DNA from: DAOVGU01 sp030637775 [NCBI: bacterium]
GTDB taxonomy: Bacteria; Ratteibacteria; UBA8468
Reading direction: 5' to 3'
DNA: 11,319 nt
Assembly: GCA_030637775.1 (NCBI GenBank)
Contig: DAOWFY010000164.1
Location: forward strand, 1-11,319
Shown here: positions 367 through 4,633 of the stretch, in pieces
Position numbering within the stretch: position 1 is the first letter of the stretch
Layout: each line of letters begins with the position of its first letter
The notes under the pieces: generated by a model
Told to the model about the DNA's origin: nothing
What the model saw: only the letters and a program-made list of their open reading frames with translations
The model's database searches: none
Position numbers and translations under genes: made by a program

Positions 367-413
367 CAATATCGCGACGGCCGGACTTCAGATATGAAGG
401 AAGGTCAAGTAAG

Positions 414-488
414 TCGGGGTGCCCGGATTTGAACCGGGGACCTCCTGCTCCCAAAGCAGGCGCGCTAAACCAGCTGCGCTACACCCCG
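414..488 (-). tRNA. tRNA-Pro (anticodon UGG)
   Basis: A full cloverleaf can be drawn on the minus strand. The seven-pair acceptor stem CGGGGTG/CACCCCG spans 482-488 with 415-421, and the discriminator A is at 414. The D stem is GCGC/GCGC, the anticodon stem CCTGC/GCAGG with loop TTTGGGA (anticodon TGG), and the T stem CCCGG/CCGGG with loop TTCAAAT. The 3' CCA is not encoded; the next bases are CTT. The 5' end overlaps the end of the cyclo-ligase gene on the same strand, so the tRNA is probably cut out of a longer rarA-ygfA transcript. Confidence 0.97.
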
Positions 489-1048
489 CAGTCAATAACT
501 CTTTTTTCGGTTATGATTTTGTCGACGGCAACATCCCTTCTATGGCTTGGAAGAGACTCGGAAATCACCTGAAGTTCAAAGACCAGACCTATTTTGAGAA
601 TTCTTTTAGGAATTTTGCTTAAGAAGCGATCGTAGAATCCCCCGCCAAAACCGATTCTGTTTCCTTTTGTGTCAAAGGCAATTCCCGGAACAATGACCAA
701 GTCAACTCTTTCTATAGAAAGAGGACGATATTTCTTTTTTGGTTCTAATATTCCAAAGGTTGAGGGAGAAAGTTCCTTAAATTGAAGGATCTGGGAGAAA
801 AGAAGGTCTTCTCCCTTGGTGATGGGTAATCCCACCTTTTTTCCTGAGGAAAGCGCTTCTTGAAGCATCTCCTTTGTTTCTACTTCGCTTCCTTTCGCGG
901 CATAGAGAAGAATTATTTTAGCGGTTTTAAATTCAAAAAAGGTAAAAAGTCTTTCCTTTATCGCCTTGCTTTTTTCTCTCCTTTCTTCCGGAGGGAGACT
1001 ATTGCGCAGTCTCAGAACTCTTCTGCGAATCTTTTCCTTTTCTGCCAC
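479..1048 (-). CDS. ygfA: 5-formyltetrahydrofolate cyclo-ligase
   Basis: This 189-residue protein has the usual length and layout of the cyclo-ligase family (MTHFS/YgfA). The family converts 5-formyl-tetrahydrofolate to 5,10-methenyl-tetrahydrofolate with ATP in the cytoplasm. The basic N-terminal helix 'KIRRRVLRLRNSL' and 'LLYAAKGSEVET' are typical. The signature ATP/folate loop 'GNRIGFGGGFYDRFL' sits at about residues 129-143. The start is GTG at 1046-1048. The same frame has a TAA two codons upstream, so this is the earliest possible start; a GGAG lies about 12 bases ahead. The start lies 50 bases inside rarA, implying coupled translation. The stop TAG (479-481) lies inside the tRNA-Pro gene, and the final codons GGG GTG TAG double as the tRNA 5' end. 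Confidence 0.95.
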   Translation of the reverse strand: MAEKEKIRRRVLRLRNSLPPEERREKSKAIKERLFTFFEFKTAKIILLYAAKGSEVETKEMLQEALSSGKKVGLPITKGEDLLFSQILQFKELSPSTFGILEPKKKYRPLSIERVDLVIVPGIAFDTKGNRIGFGGGFYDRFLSKIPKRILKIGLVFELQVISESLPSHRRDVAVDKIITEKRVIDCGV

Positions 1049-2363
1049 TTTTTATAAGTTTCTCCAGTTTTTCCATTCTTTCCCTGATCACCTTTTCATA
1101 ACCCATTCCCGAAGGTTGGTAATATTTCTTTCTTTCCGGGATATATTCCTGCTTGATAAGATGATCTTTGTAATTATGGGGATAGAGATAGTTTTGACCC
1201 CGGCCTAACTTTTCCGCACCTTTGTAACTGCCAACCTGTAAATGTTTTGGCACCTCTAAGGTTTTCCCCTTTTCTACATCGGCAATTGCCTTCTCTATTC
1301 CTAAATAGCTACTATTGCTTTTTGGACAGGTGGCAACATAGACTGCGGCCTGGGCTAAAGGAATCTTTGCTTCCGGCATGCCCACAAATTCTGAAACCTG
1401 AAGGGCAGAATTCGCCAGTACAAGAGCCTGGGGGTCGGCATTGCCCACATCCTCAGCAGCACAGATAACGATACGCCGGGCAATAAATCTGGGATCTTCT
1501 CCCGCAACGATCATCTTTGCTAACCAGTAGAGAGTGGCATCCGGATCTGAGCCGCGCATACTCTTAATAAAGGCAGAGATGGTATTATAATGTTCATCCT
1601 CATCCTTGTCGTAAAGCACCACCTTTCTCTGGATCGATTCCTCAGCTACCGCAAGAGTAAACTGTATCATACCCTGTTTATCCGGTCTTGTTGTCAGCAC
1701 ACCTATCTCTAAGGCATTGAGAGCCCGACGGGCATCACCTTCGCTCTGCTTGGCAAGATGATGAAGAGCTTCCTCCTCCATCCTCACCCTAAAATTACCC
1801 AGACCCCCTTCTTTATCAAGCAAGGCCCTTTTCATAATTACTAACAGATCCTTCTCCTCTAAGGGTTTAAATTCAAAGACAAGTGAGCGGGAAAGCAGGG
1901 GACTGTTAATGGCAAAATAGGGGTTATGAACCGTTGCCCCAATGAGGATAATTGTTCCATCCTCGACATCGGCCATAAAAGCATCCTGCTGGCTCTTATT
2001 GAAATGGTGAAGTTCATCGATAAAGAGGATTGTCCTCTTCTTGTTTATTCTTCTCCGCTCTCTTGCCTCGGCAATAATATTGCGAACATCTGCGAGGAAG
2101 GAGGTTACCGCATTGAGCGACTTAAAAGAGCCTTTGGTGGAGTTAGCAATAATATAGGCAAGGGCGGTCTTCCCGGTACCGGAGGGACCGAAGAAAATGA
2201 GGGAACTGATTCTATCAGAAAGAATTGCTCTCTGAAGTAGACTTCCTTCCTGTAAAATATGTTTTTGACCGACAAATTCCTGCAAATTCCTCGGGCGCAT
2301 CCTCATCGCTAAGGGCACCTCTTTTTTTGACTCTTCCTTTTCTAATTCAAAAAGTGTCTCCAT
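999..2363 (-). CDS. rarA: Replication-associated recombination protein A (RarA/MgsA), AAA+ ATPase
   Basis: This 454-residue protein is full length for the RarA/MgsA/WRNIP1 family, which are tetrameric clamp-loader-like ATPases acting at stalled replication forks. The N-terminus 'PLAMRMRPRNLQEFVGQKHIL' is the standard opening. Walker A is GPSGTGKT (59-66) and Walker B is ILFIDELH (112-119). Sensor 1 is GATVHNP (142-148), and 'SPLLSRSLVF' carries the arginine finger. Sensor 2 is GDARRALNALE (207-217). The C-terminal half shows the family block 'SMRGSDPDATLYWLAKM...RRIVICAAEDVG'. The ATG at 2361-2363 is right for the family. Its ribosome-binding site CGGGAG is part of the 3' strand of the upstream 6S RNA closing stem, and the six bases between are all T. 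It overlaps the cyclo-ligase gene by 50 bases. Confidence 0.96.
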   Translation of the reverse strand: METLFELEKEESKKEVPLAMRMRPRNLQEFVGQKHILQEGSLLQRAILSDRISSLIFFGPSGTGKTALAYIIANSTKGSFKSLNAVTSFLADVRNIIAEARERRRINKKRTILFIDELHHFNKSQQDAFMADVEDGTIILIGATVHNPYFAINSPLLSRSLVFEFKPLEEKDLLVIMKRALLDKEGGLGNFRVRMEEEALHHLAKQSEGDARRALNALEIGVLTTRPDKQGMIQFTLAVAEESIQRKVVLYDKDEDEHYNTISAFIKSMRGSDPDATLYWLAKMIVAGEDPRFIARRIVICAAEDVGNADPQALVLANSALQVSEFVGMPEAKIPLAQAAVYVATCPKSNSSYLGIEKAIADVEKGKTLEVPKHLQVGSYKGAEKLGRGQNYLYPHNYKDHLIKQEYIPERKKYYQPSGMGYEKVIRERMEKLEKLIKSGRKGKDSQKSSETAQ

Positions 2364-2542
2364 AAAAAACTCCCGTCCTGCCGTAAGAATAAGAATCTAT
2401 GAACCCTTTTTATAGGTGGGTGCCCTCCTGGATACTTCATGCTTTCCTTCGAAGAAGGACATGCATTCCACACCCAACGTTGGGCTCCCTTAAAAAGAGT
2501 GTTGGCTCAAGATTGTCTATTCTACACGCACAGGACAGGAGC
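2364..2542 (-). ncRNA. ssrS: 6S RNA (SsrS), RNA polymerase-binding regulatory RNA
   Basis: A 179-nt RNA is predicted on the minus strand, starting at G2542. The 5' CUCCUGUCCUG (2541-2531) pairs with the 3' CAGGACGGGAG (2380-2370) over 11 pairs with one U-G wobble, followed at once by UUUUUU (2369-2364). The stem continues with small loops: CGU/ACG, GAAUA/UAUUC, AAUCU/AGAUU. A distal arm contains GUUGGGUG pairing with CACCCACC and UGGA with UCCA. It ends in CAUG-UCCUUC-UUC-GAAGGA-AAG-CAUG. The overall shape is a rod of about 180 nt with closing stem, interrupted middle and apical stem, as in 6S RNA, which mimics an open promoter and binds sigma70 RNA polymerase. Location just before a cyclo-ligase operon matches ssrS-ygfA in gammaproteobacteria. 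A 10-pair helix ACUCUUUUUA/UAAAAAGGGU could close part of the expected central bubble, so the call rests on shape, size, promoter and context, not on a model search. Confidence 0.8.
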
Positions 2543-2548
2543 AATTTT

Positions 2549-2577
2549 ACTATATCACATTCCTTTAAAGATGTCAA
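2549..2577 (-). promoter_or_regulatory. Sigma70-type promoter of the 6S RNA-rarA-ygfA-tRNA unit
   Basis: Reading the minus strand, TTGACA (2577-2572) and TATAGT (2554-2549) are separated by exactly 17 bases. The -35 is perfect and the -10 matches five of six. The expected start point, six bases past the -10, falls on G2542, the first base before the 6S closing stem. Confidence 0.85.
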
Positions 2578-2743: not shown

Positions 2744-3658
2744 TCACAGTAAATGTTTTTTTCGTTCTTTTCTTGCCCGGTTGAGATATTCATCAAATGT
2801 CTCTATTTTGAACTCTTTAATCATCTCTTCAACACTTTTTTTCGGATGAAAGGAGGAAAGAAAATAAACCGCTTCTGGGCTGGCTACCTCAACCCTCACA
2901 TATTCTTTATACTTCTTCTTCAGATTGGCCATCTTCTGTTGATTATAATCAATATGAATAACTTTGGAATCGAGATTTATTTTTGAGAAAATAATCTTTC
3001 CGTACATACTGGATTCGGCTAAAGTGCGCCCCAGAGGATCAACGATAACACTATTCTCTCCTGGTGTGCTACTGGCAATAAAGACCTGATTTTCAAAAGC
3101 GGCTGCCGGAATCATAAATCCGGCTCTGAAAGCGGAAAGAAAACAGATCAATTCCACTCCTTTGCTTTTATAGCCGGCAAACAGTTCTCGGAAATTAAAG
3201 TCAAAGCAAATCATCGCTCCGATACGGCCAAAATCTGTCGGGAAGACTTTCGCTCCTTTACCGGGAAGAATGCCATCCTTGGACATCTCCTCTACCACCG
3301 GAAAAGTTTTATCATATACTCCAACTATCTTACCTTTTCGGCCAAACAAAACAGCACTATTATAAATTCCCTTTTTATCCTTCCGATAATAAGAAGCAAA
3401 GATATGGATTTTATGTTGCCTGGCCTTTCTCGAGAGAAATTTTGTGATTGGCTTACCCCCAGGTAATAATTCGGCGACGTCGGTTTTCTTGTAAACCATT
3501 CCGGTAAATAAGAAATGCTCCGGCAAAAGAATAATATCCGGCTTGTCGAGAGAGGCAGTATCAATAAGATTCTCCCAGGCCTTTATCCTCTTATCTATCT
3601 TTTTCTCTACTCCAGCATTATCAAAAGAGAGGCTTGATACCCCAACTAATCTGGACAT
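2744..3658 (-). CDS. Carbon-nitrogen hydrolase (nitrilase superfamily), putative amidase
   Basis: This 304-residue protein has the full Glu-Lys-Cys triad of the nitrilase superfamily. Glu47 is in 'DIILLPEHFLF', Lys117 in 'GVYDKTFPVVEE' and Cys151 in 'RIGAMICFDFNFREL'. Such enzymes hydrolyse amides, carbamoyl groups or nitriles through a cysteine thioester in the cytoplasm; the substrate cannot be read from the sequence. There is no signal peptide. A charged tail of about 30 residues (from 'HPKKSVEEMIKEF') extends past the catalytic domain. The ATG at 3656-3658 is preceded by a strong AAGGAGGAG five bases upstream. It is the last gene of a three-gene operon behind two Gfo/Idh-type oxidoreductases, with 12 bases between stop and start. 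This suggests a pathway for an amide- or amino-substituted sugar or polyol, which is inference. Confidence 0.88.
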   Translation of the reverse strand: MSRLVGVSSLSFDNAGVEKKIDKRIKAWENLIDTASLDKPDIILLPEHFLFTGMVYKKTDVAELLPGGKPITKFLSRKARQHKIHIFASYYRKDKKGIYNSAVLFGRKGKIVGVYDKTFPVVEEMSKDGILPGKGAKVFPTDFGRIGAMICFDFNFRELFAGYKSKGVELICFLSAFRAGFMIPAAAFENQVFIASSTPGENSVIVDPLGRTLAESSMYGKIIFSKINLDSKVIHIDYNQQKMANLKKKYKEYVRVEVASPEAVYFLSSFHPKKSVEEMIKEFKIETFDEYLNRARKERKKHLL

Positions 3659-3670
3659 AAGGACTCCTCC

Positions 3671-4633
3671 TTATATTTGTGAGTGGTAGATTTTGCTCAC
3701 CAATTCCATTGTCTTGACACTATCTGCAAAATTAGTTAAAGGCTGCTTGCCTTTCTTTAAGCAGTCGATGAAATGTCTGTTCTCAGCAAAGAAACCAGCA
3801 TATTTATATATTTCCTTGCTTTTAGACACCTCTGCAGTTAAAAGAATTTCTCCTTTTTCTTCATTATTCTTATAGATCAGAGCTTTATCATCCGGCTCGG
3901 CAAAGGCGGAAATCCCTTTAGCATGCATCTCCACCCGGAAGATGCGCTTCCCCACGACCCAGTTGGTCAATAGCATTCCCACTGCACCACTCTCAAACTT
4001 CAACAGGGCATTAAAAGCATTATCGTATTTGACATAGAAGTTTTCTATATCGCTACTTACCTTCTTTACCTCCCCGCCCATCCAGCGCAGAACATCTACG
4101 GCATGAATCGCATCAGAGGTTAAGATATCAACCGCCCCGTTATAATAGGGACCAGCAAAATAGTTCTTCATAAATCTGGCTGCGCACTGGATAATGGGAC
4201 CTCTCTCTTCTACTTTTTTTCTTGCCTCTACAATTACCGGACAAAAACGGCGTTGAAACCCCACCATCGTCAAACAATCATTCTTCTCGGCGGCTCTTGC
4301 CATATTCCTTGTTTGCTCAGTAGTAATTCCGGGAGGTTTCTCAATAAAGACATTCAATTTTCTGTTTAAAGATTCAATTACCAGATCAAAGAGATGATGC
4401 GGTGGCATCAAAATATAGACAGCATCCGGCTTTATTTCATCCAGCATCTTCTTATAATCGGCAAAGGTGCGTTTGATATGAAACTTTTTGCTCGTTGCAA
4501 TCAACTTCTCCTCCACCAAATCACATAACCCTGCCATCTCCACATCAGGAAATTCTGCGAGAGACGGATAGTGAACGCTATTTGCCATACCCCCGGCACC
4601 AATCAAAGCCAATCTAATTCTTTCCTTTTTCAT
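3671..4633 (-). CDS. Gfo/Idh/MocA family NAD(P)-dependent oxidoreductase
   Basis: This 320-residue protein is of normal length for the family. The N-terminal Rossmann fold opens with 'LALIGAGGMANSVHYPSL', with the dinucleotide loop GAGGMA at residues 12-17. The family EKP motif with its catalytic lysine is at 98-100. The substrate-side block 'SDAIHAVDVLRWMGG' at about 173-187 supplies the expected Asp and His. The family oxidises or reduces sugars, inositols and related polyols in the cytoplasm, and the exact substrate is not predictable here. The ATG (4631-4633) overlaps the TGA of the preceding gene as ATGA, so translation is likely coupled. It is followed by the nitrilase-family gene. Confidence 0.93.
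   Translation of the reverse strand: MKKERIRLALIGAGGMANSVHYPSLAEFPDVEMAGLCDLVEEKLIATSKKFHIKRTFADYKKMLDEIKPDAVYILMPPHHLFDLVIESLNRKLNVFIEKPPGITTEQTRNMARAAEKNDCLTMVGFQRRFCPVIVEARKKVEERGPIIQCAARFMKNYFAGPYYNGAVDILTSDAIHAVDVLRWMGGEVKKVSSDIENFYVKYDNAFNALLKFESGAVGMLLTNWVVGKRIFRVEMHAKGISAFAEPDDKALIYKNNEEKGEILLTAEVSKSKEIYKYAGFFAENRHFIDCLKKGKQPLTNFADSVKTMELVSKIYHSQI

Follow-up and report, generated by a model that had tools for sequence, protein, structure and literature searches.

The locus described here raises the question of whether the helix that closes a 6S RNA also governs the expression of rarA, the gene that follows it. In a preliminary description of the window (the whole stretch of 11,319 nt that was analysed, from the phylum Ratteibacteria), a 6S RNA had been placed at 2364–2542 on the minus strand, and its folding state, for example on release from polymerase, had been suggested to control rarA and ygfA. 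The analysis presented below shows that 6S and rarA are paired repeatedly and that the window holds an extreme case of this pairing, which is not proof of a new genetic switch. The features of the locus are collected in Table 1.

Table 1. Features of the 6S–rarA–fthC locus in the window, in the order of transcription
Feature	Position	Strand	Basis or remark
6S gene promoter (sigma-70 type), TTGACA-17-TATAGT; TG precedes the second hexamer	2549..2577	-	11/12 match
6S RNA gene, ssrS homologue	2366..2544	-	RF00013 full-length match, fold, covariation
Closing stem, 5′ strand	2530..2542	-	Fold and covariation
Predicted pRNA template core, GAGCCAAC	2501..2508	-	Predicted pRNA start 5′-GUUGGCUCAAG
Closing stem, 3′ strand, with GGGAG at 2374–2370	2369..2381	-	Sequence, fold, covariation
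U6 tract, terminator-like with the closing stem	2364..2369	-	Sequence
rarA (mgsA), AAA+ ATPase, 454 aa	999..2363	-	PF12002, PF16193, PF00004
5-Formyltetrahydrofolate cyclo-ligase (ygfA/fthC homologue)	479..1048	-	TIGR02727, PF01812
tRNA-Pro (UGG)	413..488	-	10-nt overlap with the 3′ end of the cyclo-ligase gene

Identification of the 6S RNA

The search with the Rfam models that the preliminary description had called for returned a match of RF00013 to positions 2544–2366 of the minus strand, with a score of 114 bits (E-value 5.4e-23) against a gathering score of 46.4, covering positions 1–187 of the 187 in the model. Judged by its sequence, the segment is a bona fide 6S RNA, whose transcript likely ends at about 2542 on one side and 2364–2366 on the other. 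The computed fold of 2542–2364 was the rod expected for this RNA of about 179 nt, with an energy of −74.5 kcal/mol and a z-score of −6.7, and none of 200 dinucleotide shuffles was equally stable. The closing stem, described earlier as having 11 pairs, is present in the fold and backed by covariation, its length in the minimum-energy structure being 13 uninterrupted pairs up to the first bulge, with the outermost a G-U pair formed with the first U of the tract. The stretch at 2508–2501, which we take from general 6S biology to be the pRNA template, is a predicted, template-like stretch.

To this was added an alignment of 36 rarA-linked 6S RNAs, in which two-sided changes were found in 30 of 41 pairs and 92.6% of cells were paired; these sequences were our own choice among the rarA-linked 6S RNAs and were fitted to their own structure model, which biases the alignment in favour of that model. 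None of 500 shuffles matched the observed values, and sliding the pairing partners by one to three columns lowered the paired share to 43–52%. When 19 sequences, one of them present twice, were aligned freely with MAFFT and analysed with RNAalifold, two-sided changes were seen in 27 of the 41 pairs. Compensatory changes in the closing stem, proposed earlier as a test, were present among the 36 relatives in seven of its ten modelled pairs, including both pairs that separate GGGAG from GGGGA. The parts of the 6S rod, namely the closing stem, the central bulge and the apical arm, were thus found, and the structure is backed by covariation. A chance structure was considered and rejected on the RF00013 score and the covariation.

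The junction with rarA and the downstream genes

On the minus strand GGGAG is followed directly by the U6 tract, and the rarA ATG lies at 2363–2361, so that the gap between the tract and the start codon is zero, as had been read from the sequence. The identity of the downstream gene as RarA/MgsA is given by PF12002 (229.8 bits, E-value 2.3e-68), with its best NCBIfam matches, the RarA model included, all lying under the curated cut-offs. Its start is backed by an N-terminal L-F or F-F motif common to its relatives. The gene behind it, expected to be ygfA, was confirmed as a 5-formyltetrahydrofolate cyclo-ligase gene by TIGR02727 (164.9 bits, cut-off 84.9), and, provided that its GTG start codon was chosen correctly, it overlaps the end of rarA by 50 nt. 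The tRNA-Pro(UGG) at the end of this cluster would, unless it has a separate promoter, depend on the 6S–rarA–fthC transcript. In one relative (L160) a tRNA-Pro(UGG) likewise lies behind the cyclo-ligase gene, at 3413–3489; no such tRNA gene was found in the other two family members, where the L161 contig ends soon after rarA and the L162 contig inside it.

Of 35 genomes from the phylum of the window, 32 yielded a 6S RNA. The same junction, consisting of GGGAG, 6 to 8 nt and the rarA ATG, was found in all four sampled genomes of its family, the window included. Two of these (G000 and G002) have an unbroken T6 or T7, and the other two lack a U tract, reading GGGAGCATTTAATATG in L162 (G001) and GGGAGCATTTATTATG in L161 (G003). 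With the U tract missing from half of the four members, intrinsic termination cannot be the rule throughout the family, and the 6S RNA of L161 and L162 would need either trimming from a longer transcript or Rho. The closing stem of L161 and L162 has one extra pair, with G-C replacing the G-U of the window. The combination of a lost U tract with a longer stem raises the question of how the 6S 3′ end is formed in these two genomes.

Distribution of the gene order

The surroundings of 6S RNA genes were surveyed in 159 loci from 158 genomes, 32 of the loci in the phylum of the window and 127 elsewhere. These are the matches listed with flanking sequence, out of 219 genomes with a match, and five weak 6S matches (G035, G051, G079, G081 and G083) were left out. 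Neighbours were called with tblastn at E-values below 1e-20 for rarA and below 1e-4 for ygfA, with PF12002 used only for spotting them. Among the matches listed, rarA was found near 6S in 26 of 159 loci (7 in the phylum, 19 elsewhere), in every case downstream and on the same strand, with the start of the match within 300 nt in 22 and rarA 499–984 nt away in the other four. A ygfA homologue near 6S was present in 34 of the 159 loci listed, again always on the same strand and downstream. The full order 6S–rarA–ygfA was seen in 12 of the 159, nine of which lie outside the phylum; ygfA behind rarA is undercounted here, since most of L001–L040 hold 1.5 kb of downstream sequence or less.

The reverse approach started from 80 rarA-centred loci, a set biased towards close relatives of this RarA. 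Using the model R1, itself partly built from rarA-linked 6S RNAs, a 6S match was detected in 64 of the 80, on the rarA strand in 63 and at most 300 nt upstream in 60. Sixteen had no 6S match, four of which (L174, L186, L190 and L204) hold less than 400 nt of upstream sequence. In L167 an R1 match at 1515–1672 (minus strand) lies close upstream of rarA on the opposite strand. Of 34 rarA-linked loci examined with Rfam, 28 passed the RF00013 cut-off, among them loci of Omnitrophota, Verrucomicrobia, Methylacidiphilum, Planctomycetota, Firestonebacteria, Endomicrobiales and Clostridia; those failing were L170, L177, L182, L192, L194 and L195, with two Verrucomicrobia and two Planctomycetota among them. 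The rarA-centred loci beyond these 34 were assigned by R1 only. The 6S–rarA(–ygfA) order is a widespread gene order.

Within this order the distance between the two genes varies greatly. The rarA start lies within 12 nt of the 6S end (here termed tight) in 21 of 78 6S–rarA pairs: four in the family of the window, 13 in Omnitrophota, one each in Endomicrobiales and Firestonebacteria, and two in other groups. This count leaves out G006, which has no start in the best-match frame, and the four distant loci mentioned above, and enters G001–G003 as L162, L160 and L161. Rfam confirmed the 6S RNA in 20 of the 21 tight loci, L195 being below the cut-off, and in one tight locus (G145) the chosen rarA start is unsupported by the N-terminal motif. 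The gaps ran from 3 to over 200 nt with no clear break, which looks like compaction and not like a separate class. In G094 it is a DNA polymerase III delta gene that starts at +4 after the 6S RNA (L057, gene at 4175), so that tight fusion is not limited to rarA; this too fits simple compaction. The fused arrangement, put forward earlier as a tighter version of the ssrS–ygfA linkage, holds as an extremely compact gene order, and is shared by the other tight pairs.

Transcription of 6S and rarA

The consensus promoter noted in the preliminary description was recovered as a promoter-like site, and the other three family members have a promoter-like site with 9 to 11 of 12 matching positions at an equal distance from 6S. 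For the folding and promoter counts 20 of the 21 tight loci were used, L176 being omitted because its 6S is cut by the end of the record and its rarA start may lie at +10 or +13. A promoter-like site was present just upstream of 6S in 15 of the 20, a count made without a shuffle control, and there was none at that place in five. A sigma-70-type promoter inside the 6S gene was not found above chance (2 of the 20 tight loci against 1.4 expected from shuffles), with promoters of other sigma types being possible. The idea that rarA mRNA starts at a promoter within 6S was considered and is unsupported by these counts. In the family of the window the junction itself leaves no space for an intervening promoter.

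In 62 of 158 loci the 3′ end of 6S carries a run of at least five T residues, as against 3.0–4.2% of random 18-nt stretches, an enrichment of about tenfold that fits a terminator composed of the closing stem and the U tract. Such runs occur in 16 of 21 tight and 40 of 55 loose loci, with no difference between the two. A scan for short-loop terminators found none at the 6S–rarA junction; the closing stem, a putative terminator, is a long-range hairpin. From the promoter counts, the lack of space at the junction and the T runs, rarA is most likely transcribed by polymerase passing the 6S end. The shared strand in all 26 loci of the survey also argues for shared transcription of 6S and rarA.

The translation start of rarA

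In the modelled read-through RNA of the window, GGGAG is fully held in the closing stem, with a probability of being unpaired of 0.005 or less. Of the read-through RNAs modelled for the 20 tight loci, 18 had a similarly closed G-rich strand (0.03 or less), and the rarA AUG ranged from closed to open in these models (0.12–0.99). The motif CGGGAG had been named as the ribosome-binding site of rarA lying in the closing stem; the pairing of its GGGAG stands, and its part as a working ribosome-binding site is unproven, since a weak Shine–Dalgarno sequence or none at all (dG above −4) was seen in 30 of the 55 relatives whose rarA starts over 15 nt away from 6S. Restricting the count to rarA starts backed by the N-terminal motif gives 28 of 48, and an equally weak sequence precedes five of 11 window genes examined. 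In our judgement, initiation at a masked GGGAG and initiation at the AUG and the U-rich approach to it are equally likely.

GGGAG occurs in the four family members with a dG of −6.8 to −7.0, at a spacing of 6 nt from the AUG in the window, and 12 of the 16 other folded tight loci carry the slightly weaker Shine–Dalgarno sequence GGGGA (−5.5 to −5.7). GGAG is also found within 6S about 60 nt from rarA in L182 and L230, which have no tight junction. Selection of GGGAG as the Shine–Dalgarno sequence of the family was weighed as an explanation and is unproven, with four sequences being too few and GGAG being present in those two loci.

Interpretation of the locus

The reading that we prefer, with a probability of roughly three in four, is that a canonical 6S gene forms the first gene of an extremely compact 6S–rarA–fthC transcription unit, in which the 6S RNA serves as a leader and the downstream genes are fed by read-through, with no conditional switch needed. 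Transcription would start at the 6S promoter, and the closing stem with the U tract would end most transcripts as 6S RNA in genomes that have such a tract. Transcripts continuing past the 6S end would be the rarA–fthC mRNA, with 6S itself as its 5′ leader. As the G-rich 3′ strand is paired in this mRNA, initiation at rarA would be either constitutively weak or reliant on the AUG and its U-rich stretch instead of on GGGAG.

The opposite reading, that 6S and rarA overlap without regulatory meaning and that the promoter serving rarA escaped detection, lying for instance within 6S or well upstream of it, would agree with the polymerase III delta gene in G094 and with the widely varying gap lengths. 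It is considered improbable, as the internal promoter count is close to that of the shuffles and the strand is shared in 26 of 26 loci. A somewhat better case, though still a doubtful one, can be made for a static double brake, in which the stem acts as a terminator and at the same time as a permanent mask over the ribosome-binding site of rarA, keeping RarA low next to abundant 6S as a selected arrangement that cannot be switched. The pairing of the G-rich strand in 18 of the 20 tight loci, the occurrence of tight junctions in the family of the window and in Omnitrophota, Endomicrobiales and Firestonebacteria, and the longer stem of L161 and L162, with G-C for G-U where the U tract is lost, would all fit such a brake. 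However, the G-rich strand is a regular part of the aligned 6S RNAs at any distance from rarA, so that masking comes free once the genes are packed together, and both the unbroken range of gaps and the variable pairing of the AUG speak against the brake.

It was suspected in the preliminary description that the folding state of 6S controls rarA and ygfA. In its full form this means that a particular state of 6S, such as that after pRNA-driven release from polymerase, opens the stem and exposes GGGAG, so that rarA and fthC are translated on outgrowth. The complete pairing of GGGAG in the read-through RNA only 6 nt from the AUG, and its presence in the family in place of the GGGGA of most other folded tight loci, would suit such a switch. 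However, when the pRNA template was held single-stranded over 8 to 28 nt, the stem stayed closed and the accessibility of GGGAG was unchanged (an equilibrium model of one sequence with no polymerase), and two folds differing in exposure of the start were not found at any modelled pRNA length. Because the blocked template stops short of the outer 13 pairs, the main finding here is that the rod is not displaced by a competing fold. In the available text of PMC12005410 pRNAs are up to about 14 nt long, too short to reach the stem. Removal of the first 40 nt freed the G-rich strand only in part, the probability of being unpaired staying below 0.3 in 18 of 20 loci, and the GGAG of L182 and L230 and the missing strong Shine–Dalgarno sequence in 30 of 55 relatives also count against the switch. 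The possibility that pRNA synthesis triggers it by opening the closing stem was considered and is unsupported by the pRNA model. Control of rarA and ygfA by 6S folding is thus not borne out, and a switch of this kind is regarded as having a very slim chance of being correct. The wider proposal of a conditional leader, in which the end helix of 6S sets rarA–fthC expression through termination and start masking, passing the state of polymerase in cis to a fork-repair gene, and in which the arrangement was repeatedly kept or gained in Ratteibacteria, Omnitrophota, Endomicrobiales and Firestonebacteria, is also held to be quite unlikely.

Comparison with known systems

The fused junctions are natural constructs in which a single helix serves both the end of an RNA and the start of a protein. 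The co-transcription of 6S and rarA that the preferred reading requires is inferred from the zero gap and from the absence of an internal promoter above chance. Apart from a paper on lactic acid bacteria (PMC8414754), no account of 6S upstream of rarA was found among the titles and abstract openings surveyed, and an earlier mention is possible. In the available text of that paper, rarA is a conserved neighbour of 6S in Lactobacillales, located upstream of a 6S gene thought to be monocistronic; rarA thus adjoins 6S in both cases, with that of the window lying downstream and in the same direction. According to the same text, 6S RNA and the tRNA-Lys that follows it in Streptococcaceae probably arise from one primary transcript (PMC8414754). 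The likeness lies in a 6S RNA that would share its transcript with the next gene, and the difference in that this gene is a tRNA, as opposed to a protein gene starting beside the closing stem in the window.

A further parallel is the ssrS–ygfA pair of gammaproteobacteria, where in E. coli and Coxiella 6S is co-transcribed with, or lies in the 5′ UTR of, the cyclo-ligase gene. According to the available text of the two sources, this is a conserved arrangement (PMC2848244; PMC4064990), the functional significance of which one of them calls unknown (PMC2848244). A 2011 paper by Chae reportedly deals with Rho-dependent termination of ssrS and ygfA expression. The window likewise has a cyclo-ligase gene downstream of 6S in the same direction, but this gene is not directly downstream, since rarA stands between the two and starts directly at the 6S end. 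The proteobacterial ssrS–ygfA pair, that of E. coli included, may be what remains of the 6S–rarA(–ygfA) order, and the 12 loci with all three genes, nine of them outside the phylum, suggest that the three-gene unit may be ancestral. If so, 6S would be tied to both fork repair and folate metabolism, and the meaning of the 6S–ygfA linkage would become testable.
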